Shown here piece by piece: positions 60,418 through 64,000 of a DNA stretch of 64,000 nt. The stretch's first letter is position 1. Each line of letters begins with the position of its first letter. The position numbers were made by a program, and so were the translations under genes. Source of the DNA: Caballeronia sp. SBC1 (GTDB lineage: Bacteria > Pseudomonadota > Gammaproteobacteria > Burkholderiales > Burkholderiaceae); contig NZ_CP049156.1 of the NCBI RefSeq assembly GCF_011493005.1, forward strand, positions 434,001-498,000, written 5' to 3'. Below the pieces are notes generated by a model. The model was not told the origin of the DNA. It searched no databases and was given only the letters and a program-made list of their open reading frames with translations.

Positions 60418-61500
60418 ATGTCCGCTTCCACGCCTGCCTCCGCCTCGTCCGCCTCTTCCATTGACTCCGTTACGCTTGCGCGTCCCGACGATTGGCATTT
60501 GCACGTGCGCGACGGCGCCGTGCTTGCCGCTGTCCTGCCGCATACGGCACGGCAGTTCGGCCGCGCGATCATCATGCCGAACTTGCGGCCGCCCGTGACG
60601 ACGACCGAGATGGCGGCGGCGTACCGCGAGCGGATTCTGGCCGCGTTACCCAAGGACGGCCCGGGCGCGCGTTTTGAGCCGCTGATGACGCTTTATCTCA
60701 CCGACAACACCCCGCCCGACGAAATTCGTCGTGCCCGCGAAAGCGGTTTTGTCCACGGAGTAAAGCTTTATCCGGCAGGGGCGACGACCAATTCGGACGC
60801 CGGTGTCACGAGCATCGCGAAGTGCGCGAAGACGCTGGAGGCGATGCAAAAGCACGACCTGCCGCTGCTCGTGCATGGCGAAGTAACGGACCCGGCCATC
60901 GATATGTTCGACCGCGAGAAGGTGTTTATAGATCGTGTGATGACGCCGTTGCGCCGCGATTTTCCCGCGTTGAAGGTCGTGTTCGAGCACATCACGACGA
61001 AGGACGCCGCCGATTACGTCCGCGATGCCGACGGCCCGACCGGCGCCACACTGACCGCGCATCATTTGCTGTACAACCGCAATGCGCTGTTTGTCGGCGG
61101 AATCCGGCCGCATTACTACTGCTTGCCGGTGCTCAAGCGCGAGACGCATCGCGTGGCGCTGCTCGCGGCGGCTACGTCGGGCAATCCGCGCTTTTTCCTC
61201 GGTACGGACAGCGCGCCGCACGCGAAAGGGCTGAAGGAGCACGCATGCGGTTGCGCGGGGTGTTACACGGCGCTGCACGCGCTGGAGCTCTACACGCAAG
61301 CCTTCGATCAGGCTGGCGCGCTCGACCGGCTCGAGGGTTTCGCGAGTTTTTACGGCGCGGACTTTTACGGTTTGCCGCGCTCGACAGAGAGCGTGACGCT
61401 GCGTCGGGAACCCTGGACGCTGCCAGCGGAATTCATGGCTGGCGATGATGAAATCGTGCCGCTGGGCGGCGGTGAATCGATTGGCTGGCGGATGGAGTGA
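60418..61500 (+). CDS. pyrC: Dihydroorotase PyrC
   Basis: 360 residues from the ATG at 60418. ARPDDWHLHVRDG holds the two metal histidines, VKLYPAGATTNSDAGV the carboxylated lysine, LLVHGEVTD and FEHITTKDAA further histidine ligands, and GTDSAPHAKGLK the catalytic aspartate. This is the class II (E. coli-like) dihydroorotase of pyrimidine synthesis. A Ser/Ala-rich stretch of about 15 residues precedes the domain. The DUF3025 gene follows after 64 bp. Confidence 0.95.
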   Translation: MSASTPASASSASSIDSVTLARPDDWHLHVRDGAVLAAVLPHTARQFGRAIIMPNLRPPVTTTEMAAAYRERILAALPKDGPGARFEPLMTLYLTDNTPPDEIRRARESGFVHGVKLYPAGATTNSDAGVTSIAKCAKTLEAMQKHDLPLLVHGEVTDPAIDMFDREKVFIDRVMTPLRRDFPALKVVFEHITTKDAADYVRDADGPTGATLTAHHLLYNRNALFVGGIRPHYYCLPVLKRETHRVALLAAATSGNPRFFLGTDSAPHAKGLKEHACGCAGCYTALHALELYTQAFDQAGALDRLEGFASFYGADFYGLPRSTESVTLRREPWTLPAEFMAGDDEIVPLGGGESIGWRME

Positions 61501-61564
61501 CGGGTTGTCGGGGCACGCTTGGGAAGGTCCGAGCGGAAACCCCCGCGCCTCTTTAGCTACTTGT

Positions 61565-62524
61565 ATGTCCGACCGGGAAAATGCATCGAAGCCTGAAAAC
61601 GCGGAAACGGCGCCGCTTTTGCCAGCGGATACCCGCGCGGCGCGGTGCTTTATGGATATCGACTGGTCTCGTCCGTGGCTGGCGCCACTTGCCGAGCGCG
61701 GCGAGCGCTGGCGCCAGGCCGCGCTCAATAGCTACTCCGCCTATCTTTCCACGCTTAACGCCGACGCACACACCGACGCACACACCGACGCACACACCGA
61801 CGCACACACCGACGCACACACCGACGCACACACCGACCCGCGCGTAACCGGACGAGGCAAGCCGCTGTCGTTCATCGCGCAGGACGAGTTGCCGGCGGGG
61901 GCGTCGTATGAAGGGCATATCGCCGAAACCGGATGCGTGCCTACGCGTCACAACTTGCATGATTTCTTCAACGGCTCGATGTGGTTCCAGTACCCGCGCA
62001 TCAAGGCAACGCTGAATGCGCGGCAGGCTGCGGAAATCGATGCGCTCGGCATCGGTCCCACACGTGGCGCGGCGCGCGACGCCCTGACGCTCTTCGATGA
62101 AAACGCGATCCTCTTTGCCTGTGCAGACGCGTCGCTCGCCGCTGCACTTCGAGCCTTCGACTGGCGCAAGTTGTTCGTCGAACAACGCGCAGCCTGGGGC
62201 CTTCGATGCGAAGCGCGCATCTTCGGCCACGCGCTGCTGGAAAAACTCGTCGCCCCGTACAAGGCGTGTACGGGGCACGTTTGGATAGCGGAAGTCGAGC
62301 CTGCCTACTTCTCCGCCACCGATGCCGGGCGCCGGGCGATCCTGGACCACGCGGTGTCTGAACAACTAAAAAACGAAGCCATTTCCAGCCGATATTTCAC
62401 GCCACTGCCGGTGCTGGGCGTACCGGGCTGGTGGCCTGAAAACGAAGTCCCTTCTTTCTACGATGACCCTCAGGTCTTTCGATCCGGCCGCCGGTCGCGG
62501 ACCTGGCCGGTGCAATCAGCCTGA
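61565..62524 (+). CDS. DUF3025 domain protein with a DAHT repeat tract
   Basis: 319 residues from the ATG at 61565; an upstream frame overlaps pyrC and is not conserved. MDIDWSRPWLAPLAERGERW and the central LHDFFNGSMWFQYPRIKATLNARQAAEI with TLFDENAILFAC are DUF3025 features. Residues about 67-90 are six exact repeats of DAHT, absent from a typical family member as far as I can judge. Function unknown. Base use otherwise matches neighbours. It ends 41 bp before rnpB. Confidence 0.85.
   Translation: MSDRENASKPENAETAPLLPADTRAARCFMDIDWSRPWLAPLAERGERWRQAALNSYSAYLSTLNADAHTDAHTDAHTDAHTDAHTDAHTDPRVTGRGKPLSFIAQDELPAGASYEGHIAETGCVPTRHNLHDFFNGSMWFQYPRIKATLNARQAAEIDALGIGPTRGAARDALTLFDENAILFACADASLAAALRAFDWRKLFVEQRAAWGLRCEARIFGHALLEKLVAPYKACTGHVWIAEVEPAYFSATDAGRRAILDHAVSEQLKNEAISSRYFTPLPVLGVPGWWPENEVPSFYDDPQVFRSGRRSRTWPVQSA
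61763..61834 (+). repeat. In-frame 12-bp minisatellite, six copies
   Basis: GACGCACACACC repeated six times exactly, coding for DAHT. Copy number can change by slippage without a frameshift. Confidence 0.95.
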
Positions 62525-62565: not shown

Positions 62566-62985
<420 letters not shown>

Positions 62986-62994
62986 TTCAAAAAG

Positions 62995-63028
62995 AAAGCC
63001 GGCGTCAGTGATGACGCCGGCTTTTTTT
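62995..63028 (+). terminator. Intrinsic terminator of rnpB
   Basis: Stem GCCGGCGTCA / TGACGCCGGC with a GTGA loop, A's before and seven T's after. It also faces the convergent OsmC gene. Confidence 0.9.
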
Positions 63029-63055: not shown

Positions 63056-63478
63056 TCAGCTCGCGACGATATCGAAGGAATGCGTCAATTCGGCCGTCTT
63101 CGCCAGCATGATCGACGCCGAGCAGTATTTGTCGTGTGAGAGGGTGATTGCGCGTTCAACCGTCGCGGGATTCAGGTTCTTGCCTGTCACCGTGAAATGG
63201 AAGTGGATCTTCGTAAACACCTTCGGCTCTTCACTCGCGCGCTCGGCCTTGAGCGTGACCGAGCAACCCGCCACTTCCTGACGACTTTTCTTCAGGATCA
63301 TCACGACGTCGTACGCGGTGCAGCCGCCCGTGCCGAGCAAGACCATTTCCATTGGTCGCGGCGAGAGATTGCGGCCGCCGCCTTCCGGTGCGCCGTCCAT
63401 TGTGACCAGATGACCGCTGCCCGTTTCCGCGGCAAACGCCATTCCGTCCTGTCCCATCCAGCTAACTTTGCATTCCAT
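63056..63478 (-). CDS. OsmC family protein (YhfA-like)
   Basis: 140 residues. The two redox cysteines typical of OsmC/Ohr are in GTGGCTAYDVV and DKYCSASIML. MECKVSWMGQDGMAFAAETGSGH and PRPMEMVLLGTGGC resemble the YhfA branch. OsmC/Ohr proteins reduce organic hydroperoxides; YhfA-type members are less well characterised. GGAG lies eight bases upstream. A 16-bp palindrome sits 18 bases before the start. Confidence 0.88.
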   Translation of the reverse strand: MECKVSWMGQDGMAFAAETGSGHLVTMDGAPEGGGRNLSPRPMEMVLLGTGGCTAYDVVMILKKSRQEVAGCSVTLKAERASEEPKVFTKIHFHFTVTGKNLNPATVERAITLSHDKYCSASIMLAKTAELTHSFDIVAS

Positions 63479-63496
63479 GAGAAAACTCCGGTGCCA

Positions 63497-63512
63497 TAAG
63501 ACACTTGTCTAA
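63497..63512. promoter_or_regulatory. Candidate operator upstream of the OsmC gene
   Basis: TAAGACA-CT-TGTCTAA, six of seven positions symmetric. It lies just downstream of a minus-strand -10-like TACAAT (63521-63526), a repressor position. Possible MarR-type site; the regulator is unknown. Confidence 0.4.
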
Positions 63513-63735
63513 TCGTGTCGATTGTAGCGTTTTAGCTGATTGTAGGAATCGCAGTAGTGCGTTCGTTTGTCTTTTCCGTGAAGCGTTGTTGCGTCGCAAT
63601 ACGTAAGACAAATTCGCGATTTCCCTACTATGAATAAGGGGTTTCTCCTGCAAGTTGTGCCTGAGAAGCTTTTAAATTTCAGGTAAGTAATTGATTGTAA
63701 ATACTAAATAATTCGATCGTCCGTGACGTTAACAT

Positions 63736-63768
63736 TTTGCATTATGAAATTACATCCCATAATGCAAA
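63736..63768. promoter_or_regulatory. 33-bp dyad upstream of the sRNA promoter
   Basis: TTTGCATTATG (63736-63746) and CATAATGCAAA (63758-63768) are a perfect 11-bp inverted repeat with an 11-bp spacer, so arm centres are 22 bp or about two helical turns apart. It ends five bases before the -35, where an activator would bind. Confidence 0.6.
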
Positions 63769-63773
63769 TTTAC

Positions 63774-63809
63774 TTGCTTTGCACAAAAGCCCTTCATATA
63801 CTTGCTCCT
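63774..63809 (+). promoter_or_regulatory. Predicted promoter of the small RNA
   Basis: TTGCTT (63774-63779) and TATACT (63797-63802) with a 17-bp spacer, giving a start near 63809. Confidence 0.55.
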
Positions 63810-63867
63810 GTCTCCTCCACCTCCTCCTAGGTGGATTCAGCCCGAGCCCAAGGCTCGGGCTTTTTTT
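63809..63867 (+). ncRNA. Predicted small RNA with CCUCCU anti-SD loop
   Basis: A compact transcript of about 59 nt. Hairpin 1 is TCCACCT (63816-63822) / AGGTGGA (63829-63835) with the loop CCTCCT, complementary to Shine-Dalgarno sequences; the 5' arm extends a run of CTCC units. Hairpin 2 is the terminator AGCCCGAGCC / GGCTCGGGCT plus T run. C-rich-loop sRNAs of this kind (e.g. the CcsR group in alpha-proteobacteria) base-pair with ribosome-binding regions. I cannot assign it to a named family. Confidence 0.55.
63839..63867 (+). terminator. Intrinsic terminator of the small RNA
   Basis: Stem AGCCCGAGCC / GGCTCGGGCT, CAA loop, T7 tract. Confidence 0.9.
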
Positions 63868-64000
63868 CGTCTGCTTTAGCGTCGATTTTGGTCATGACGG
63901 CCCGGTTGTTCGCTCGTCGTTCGGTCGCAAAATCTCCCCACAATGCGATCGTTCAGCACTGAATCGGGGTGAATTTGCTTGTCGAACAGGCAAGTTTTGA

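Follow-up and report, generated by a model that had tools for sequence, protein, structure and literature searches.

An NcS27-type RF02278 small RNA of Caballeronia and its conserved promoter elements

A short intergenic region between a divergent OsmC-like gene and rplM-rpsI (names from translations) appears to encode a small RNA; this raises the questions of which RNA it is, what it acts on and what controls it. The window, i.e. the whole stretch of 64,000 nucleotides that was analysed, contains the following features at this locus.

63056..63478, minus strand: OsmC-like gene (name from translation), divergent neighbour and synteny anchor, from translation and homologous loci
63735..63772, no strand: conserved palindromic block upstream of the -35, a probable (predicted) regulator site, from conservation
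63771..63787, plus strand: TACTTGCTTTGCACAAA, degenerate PhaR/PhbF-like palindrome TGC-N3-GCA overlapping the -35, with 3/17 mismatches to YTKNTGCRNYGCANMAR
63774..63779, plus strand: -35 TTGCTT, read from the sequence and conserved in orthologues
63797..63802, plus strand: -10 TATACT (TATAAT in many relatives), from conservation across orthologous promoters
63809..63868, plus strand: RF02278 sRNA of NcS27 type, about 60 nt, from a 70.2-bit match and synteny
63809..63818, plus strand: 5' tail UGUCUCCUCC, complementary to ribosome sites; its last three letters open stem 1
63816..63835, plus strand: hairpin 1, with a 7-bp stem TCCACCT/AGGTGGA (63816-63822 with 63829-63835) and loop CCUCCU (63823-63828)
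63839..63867, plus strand: intrinsic terminator, with a 10-bp stem (63839-63861), a 3-nt loop and a T tract to 63867, from terminator scan and fold

Other elements are found nearby on the plus strand. Bacterial RNase P RNA, class A (RF00010, 284 bits) lies at 62566-62983 and is followed by a bidirectional terminator-like hairpin (62991-63028). A frame at 61445-62524 holds six tandem DAHT repeats, possibly a variable-number repeat in a coding gene.

The original prediction described a promoter with a 17-bp spacer, a 7-bp hairpin with a CCTCCT loop and a terminator in under 100 bp. All of these are present where it placed them, and the unit, counted from the -35 up to where the Rfam match ends, spans 95 bp. 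The promoter has 8/12 consensus letters; transcription is predicted to start at about 63809, which is the same base as position 1 of the RF02278 model. A simple promoter scan did not list the TTGCTT/TATACT promoter and listed one inside the upstream palindrome instead; such scans prefer the palindrome candidate also for loci L038-L043. This candidate was rejected. TTGCTT/TATACT is favoured due to its conservation among orthologues, and the conserved -10 is the one first proposed. The stretch 63809-63868 has a predicted fold of -30.7 kcal/mol (shuffles: mean -15.1, sd 2.6; z -6.07; 0/200 equally good) with two hairpins, the second being the intrinsic terminator, as expected of RF02278. The statement that no open frame is present needs qualification: a mechanical 87-aa TTG frame (63737-64000) crosses the unit, but coding is unlikely since homologue lengths differ by non-multiples of three. 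As an observation, the unit of promoter, hairpin and terminator making a 60-nt RNA is confirmed as real; the interpretation first given to it is partly supported.

The RNA is ordinary in that it is another member of an already named family, RF02278 (Betaproteobacteria toxic sRNA, or double-hairpin RNA). The match at 63809-63868 is above the gathering cut-off of 50 bits (E 4e-12 in a 64-kb scan) and covers model positions 1-64 of 64. The original prediction could not assign the unit to a named family; this was wrong, as RF02278 and the double-hairpin RNAs ncS03, ncS05, ncS27 and ncS62 have been described (PMC4603805, PMC5688073). The family owes its name to toxicity in E. coli, and the RNA has been seen by Northern blot in Burkholderia cenocepacia (PMC4603805); the four homologues of strain J2315 are those named double-hairpin RNAs (PMC5688073).

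The 8.85-Mb genome contains three RF02278 copies above the cut-off: the window copy (L003), L001 and L002. There are also six weaker matches (22.8 to 35.2 bits), a level to be read against sub-cut-off matches in 11/14 control genomes at the same E limit. Within the genus, RF02278 is matched in 58/58 genomes at E 1e-4, and above the cut-off in 57/58, so that the RNA is conserved in related genomes. Across the order, 214/399 sampled genomes match at E 1e-4 and 144/399 are above the cut-off, compared to 0/14 controls. The promoter and sRNA stretch of one genus genome (L053) is identical to that of Caballeronia arvi (L079). Another genus genome, G020, has 13 matches at E 1e-4 compared to 1 to 9 in the other 57; its assembly is reported with 5% contamination. 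About 2 kb from the L001 copy there is a sub-cut-off RF02278-like unit (L005:1492-1558, minus strand, 35 bits) with the tail UGUCUCCUCC and a UUCG loop. A phage origin was considered and rejected: 63480-64000 has no match in 50,697 phage records.

Covariation is 0.217 compared to 0.114 in shuffles; this is mostly terminator signal, and the terminator helix shows double changes in 6/10 pairs. Stem 1 is 94.9% paired. Four of its pairs are invariant, one is C-G in 17 rows and U-A in 5, and the innermost is unpaired in 10. A folding check was passed by 68/91 unique strings; the 23 misses comprise 13 second starts within the same RNA, the strings of L002, L005 and L063, and seven strings from records of Herbaspirillum, Glaciimonas and Undibacterium.

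Judged by synteny, the window sRNA is an orthologue of B. cenocepacia NcS27, the J2315 neighbours being taken from papers. The assignment is explained by the shared place between an OsmC-like gene and a ribosomal protein gene (BCAL3349 and BCAL3348 in J2315; rplM here). In J2315, ncS27 (complement 3666557..3666648) adjoins BCAL3349, which has been re-annotated as 3666965..3667387, i.e. 423 nt (PMC4603805); the OsmC frame in the window is also 423 nt. BCAL3348 is a ribosomal protein gene (PMC5688073). OsmC loci were taken from named records as the best 80 of 591 confirmed stretches. A strong sRNA match (E 2.6e-9 or better) lies upstream of OsmC in 51 of these 80, and a weak one is found at L146 (4e-4). 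All loci titled Burkholderia, Paraburkholderia, Caballeronia, Trinickia, Pandoraea, Cupriavidus or Ralstonia are sRNA-positive; within the same best 80 of 591, Massilia, Janthinobacterium and Duganella loci have no sRNA beside OsmC. The search model consists of 35 rows picked by the string TCTCCTCC. Training rows came from 25 of the 51 positive loci and not from the other 26, some of which are identical to training rows.

The NcS27 primary transcript is 92 nt long and carries a removable leader; in the window, the -10 stands 6 bp from the core and such a leader is not found. Leader presence varies between relatives. The distance from -10 to core is 34-47 nt in 23/25 named loci (L068-L092) and 6 nt in two (L079, L085). 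Of 30 further genus loci, 25 have a distance of 5-6 nt and three one of 37 nt; two were unscored by the script and by eye are with leader (L047) and without (L060). In the B. cepacia-complex-like locus L077, the spacing is 37 nt and the core 61 nt, which gives 37-6+61 = 92 nt, the published ncS27 length.

In an OsmC+rplM tree, leaderless loci fall into two groups, each beside leader-bearing loci. The group of this genome has a support of 0.96, and the nodes that connect it with leader-bearing relatives have 0.91 and 1.0; for the other group the values are only 0.58 and 0.72. Two leader losses would be the simplest reading, the second being weakly supported. Absence of the NcS27 leader (about 31 nt) from the window lineage seems to be new within a limited search. 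With no leader, the mature 5' end should also be the transcription start. An apparently repeated loss in which the start lands at the core provides a natural comparison for the purpose of processing.

The loop CCUCCU had been proposed as the active element. Pairing with ribosome sites stands, but the loop does not appear to be the best conserved complementary element; by the letters kept, this is the unpaired 5' end UGUCUCCUCC, i.e. Site 1 in the terms used for S17. The tail TCTCCTCC is kept in 51/51 strong orthologous matches and CCTCC in the stem-loop in 48/51, counts that are biased as the matches and the model were partly selected by the tail string. Likewise, T3 to A11 are invariant in the 35 diverse rows, which had been picked by TCTCCTCC. 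The paralogue L002, an Rfam match (72 bits) found with no tail-based selection, has an intact tail and a UCUACU loop. Tail and loop of the window RNA are both CU-rich, unpaired and complementary to ribosome sites, as in other RF02278 RNAs.

Published work on relatives indicates what such an RNA does. In J2315, ncS27 is increased 9.7-fold in biofilm, 3.9-fold in starvation and 4.3-fold in glucose medium, where ncS03 and ncS05 are increased 8.0- and 6.9-fold; its overexpression attenuates growth, and 55-80% of predicted pairings fall around gene starts (PMC5688073). NcS27 affects growth with phenylalanine, tyrosine, glycerol and galactose, and its overexpression slows growth on glycerol (review PMC10987360). 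Glycerol kinase is a predicted target of double-hairpin RNAs (PMC5688073). In Bordetella, repression of BP2158 by S17S depends on pairing through Site 1, as confirmed by restoring mutations; repression by the long form is weaker (PMC11722255). S17S is not clearly toxic in E. coli BL21 (PMC11722255); consequently, toxicity cannot be assumed for the window RNA.

The genes glpK and hmgA were scored as targets since NcS27 affects growth on their substrates. The glpK start region pairs with sRNA positions 1-30 at -25.3 kcal/mol, beyond 46/46 window starts (best -23.4) and 300/300 random places (best -23.8). Positions 1-12 form 11 pairs with one mismatch against the 12 nt directly before the glpK AUG, GUGGAGAAGACA. 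A longer region gives -25.8 kcal/mol, although the further pairs require hairpin 1 to open; cofolding with the full sRNA gains 10.2 kcal/mol. The hmgA start region has no site (-8.0), and no TIGR01267 match was found for phhA. One good duplex is weak proof, since many starts will pair with any sequence that resembles the 16S anti-SD.

Very probably, the locus encodes an NcS27-type RF02278 member that pairs with ribosome binding sites of mRNAs. A sigma-70 promoter would start transcription at about 63809 and the intrinsic terminator would end it, giving an RNA of about 60 nt. The 5' end UGUCUCCUCC and the loop CCUCCU would pair with ribosome sites of mRNAs whose products take up or use carbon compounds and so reduce translation; glpK is the best target candidate in the genome, and Hfq is probably involved. 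This lineage would make directly the short form that relatives reach by leader removal. This reading is carried by the family match, the synteny, the predicted fold, the conserved promoter, the missing leader and the complementarity to glpK; expression, growth attenuation and repression by Site 1 pairing come from papers on relatives (PMC4603805, PMC5688073, PMC11722255). By analogy with these, the RNA would be expressed in this strain and may have comparable targets. The proposal of a sRNA of about 60 nt, starting at 63809 and complementary to ribosome sites, appears right in kind, and pairing as its likely mechanism is in line with S17 Site 1.

Two other readings of the unit have been weighed against mRNA pairing. 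The unit could be a cis-acting leader or attenuator of the rplM-rpsI operon, with no trans-acting sRNA: it precedes rplM, shares its strand and has a terminator at its end, and OsmC with the sRNA forms part of an order that is conserved in the 51/80 loci described above. However, a separate promoter match, TTGACT-18-TATAAT (11/12), lies between the end of the sRNA (L003 1560) and the start of rplM (about L003 1839), at L003 1689-1718. The two further copies above cut-off lie elsewhere in the genome, and J2315 ncS27 has been mapped as a transcript of its own (PMC5688073). Control of rplM-rpsI in cis is thus highly improbable.

Alternatively, the RNA may mainly titrate a protein or the ribosome, as a CsrA sponge or by binding 30S, instead of pairing with mRNAs. 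The sequence CACCUCCU of the RNA is identical to the anti-SD end of 16S rRNA, and this reading would also suit a family named for toxicity in E. coli (PMC4603805). Compensatory site-directed mutations in S17 and BP2158 restore repression and so argue for mRNA pairing (PMC11722255). An anti-SD-like RNA would bind mRNAs rather than the 16S end. CsrA/RsmA-titrating sRNAs carry repeated GGA in hairpin loops; the window RNA has one GGA, in the 3' arm of the stem, and none in the loop. The suggestion that it titrates a binding protein finds no support in the sequence, and titration in general is very unlikely.

The locus is of more interest for its control region than for the RNA. The cause of double-hairpin RNA accumulation is called unknown in PMC5688073, and that paper mentions a motif shared upstream by three J2315 homologues (Fig. 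S3), which may be the same as the elements described here or another. The palindromic block contains a perfect 11-bp inverted repeat (63736-63746 and 63758-63768; 0.00 expected in shuffles); its left edge is the start of the interval originally reported, where the repeat was not mentioned. Conservation in the 23 orthologous promoters from outside the genus is mostly 0.6-2 bits per column between -39 and -2 before the -35, a central spacer excepted, compared to 0-0.4 bits in the flanking columns -66 to -41. At up to 3 mismatches, the block consensus occurs at 33 places in 31/58 genus genomes, the backward control at none, and this genome has one place. The consensus is absent at the sRNA in 28/58 genus genomes at this threshold. 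As 30 of the 33 places are at this sRNA, the block appears to serve a regulator that has few further sites of this kind. The conserved 38-bp block upstream of NcS27-type promoters seems to be new within a limited search. L001-type paralogues (L001, L009-L037) share another upstream element, ATAGGGGTTT, found within 110 nt upstream in 30/30 promoters; it was not seen before L002 or L003.

A second element overlaps the -35 and resembles the operator of PhaR. The PhaR consensus is taken from work on R. eutropha and Herbaspirillum rather than on the window organism. In Herbaspirillum, footprinting places PhbF on TG[N]TGC[N]3GCAA; the protein represses phaP1 as well as its own promoter and also attaches to PHB granules (PMC3206438). 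For PhaR of R. eutropha, which nascent granules sequester, the palindrome YTKNTGCRNYGCANMAR has been used with up to 3 mismatches (PMC12849132). Binding and repression with relief by PHB have been demonstrated for phasin and phbF promoters only (PMC3206438, PMC12849132). The genome contains a phaR gene (TIGR01848, 154.3 bits, cut-off 109.45).

Tentatively, the double-hairpin sRNAs of many Burkholderiales may be a PhaR-controlled non-coding arm of the PHB circuit, with glpK-type targets and with the leader shed in parts of the genus. PhaR would sit on the -35 of their promoters at a candidate operator. PHB granules, once formed, would titrate PhaR and release the sRNAs together with phasins; the released sRNAs may then block the ribosome sites of genes for carbon uptake, e.g. 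glpK, and so couple carbon import to carbon storage. Because the leader is shed in parts of the genus, release would yield the active short form at once. A PhaR operator, if true, would explain sRNA accumulation in lineages carrying TGC-N3-GCA, and would fit the higher sRNA levels in glucose medium and growth arrest.

There is an even chance that the TTGC-N3-GCACAA element only extends the -35 of these promoters and does not act as a PhaR operator. It overlaps the -35, and the window site, with its 3/17 mismatches (one in paralogue L002), would be unremarkable alone: one strand of the 64 kb has 94 placements at this level, which corresponds to an expectation of 0.16 per 110 nt. In addition, 0/33 genus orthologues have the 17-mer with at most 2 mismatches, and PhaR autoregulation was rejected, as no site occurs within 300-400 nt before the matched domain of phaR. 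The pattern TTGCNNNGCACMA is mildly enriched genome-wide (68 occurrences compared to 44 for the backward control). On the other hand, the GCA half lies outside the -35 hexamer yet is conserved, and the 17 letters of the window site are the same in 14/14 loci L038-L051. Within 110 nt before the core, TGC-N3-GCA is found in 81/124 unique promoters, compared to 0, 4 and 1 for three control palindromes; L003 and L038 are one promoter, and promoters within one genus are not independent. By group, it is present in 31/33 genus orthologues, 9/12 of the Paraburkholderia group, 5/5 Pandoraea, 8/10 of the Oxalobacteraceae group, 3/5 of the Roseateles group, 15/29 L001-type paralogues and 8/17 others (3 of those 20 loci are without core). 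The values for Burkholderia s.s.-like promoters (0/4) and the Cupriavidus/Ralstonia group (2/9) favour an extended -35. Background is 0.12-0.19 per 110 nt (0.022 in the Roseateles group; the 17 others are without flank).

The 17-mer occurs with at most 1 mismatch in 35/129 promoters (8/12 Paraburkholderia-group orthologues) and with at most 2 in 58/129, compared to 0/129 at 2 and 4/129 at 3 for the reversed motif; in the four Burkholderia s.s.-like promoters and in L224 the hits are located in the leader hairpin, and certain other hits are away from the -35. Identical words also point to an operator: three TTGCNNNGCACMA occurrences stand just before two of the six phasin genes and two at RF02278 copies (the window copy and L002). 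Phasin upstream regions have the 17-mer with at most 2 mismatches in 4/6 cases and with 3 in 2/6. One phasin promoter has, by eye, a site before the -35 and a site after the -10, as described for phaP1 (PMC12849132). No connection between RF02278 and PHB or PhaR was found in a limited search of the open literature, and the words PHB, PhaR, phasin and polyhydroxy are absent from PMC5688073. The resemblance of TGC-N3-GCA in promoters of this family to the PhaR operator thus seems to be new within that search. The PhaR reading is open to test.

Among known systems, the closest are NcS27, ncS03, ncS05 and ncS62 of B. cenocepacia J2315, which belong to the same family and have two hairpins and CU-rich unpaired sequences. 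NcS27 shares its OsmC-like neighbour with the window sRNA, but is a processed RNA of 92 nt, whereas the window RNA has no leader; its Burkholderia s.s.-like promoters also lack TGC-N3-GCA (4/4), unlike those of the window lineage. Herbaspirillum seropedicae has four RF02278 members with bit scores, Hsnc059/063/086/107, for which the passages of PMC7011215 report no functional test. NfeR1/alpha-r14 likewise silences mRNAs at the start region through anti-SD motifs in unpaired regions. It is a different, Hfq-independent RNA of alphaproteobacteria with three hairpins each carrying CCUCCUCCC (PMC10746234); the window RNA has one anti-SD hairpin, with loop CCUCCU, plus the terminator.

In S17/S17S of Bordetella pertussis, the 5' part is close to RF02278 RNAs, with a 2-nt mismatch with bdhR1, and repression acts through it; S17 differs in being cut by RNase E from a 190-nt precursor and in its Bvg-linked expression, and is likened here by description rather than by letters (PMC11722255). 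For control, MmgR of Sinorhizobium meliloti provides a precedent of a sRNA repressed by a PHB-linked regulator, AniA(PhaR) (PMC8401924). MmgR belongs to the unrelated RNA family alpha-r8 and is also NtrC-regulated (PMC8401924); in the window lineage, the corresponding PhaR link would depend on the palindrome at the -35.
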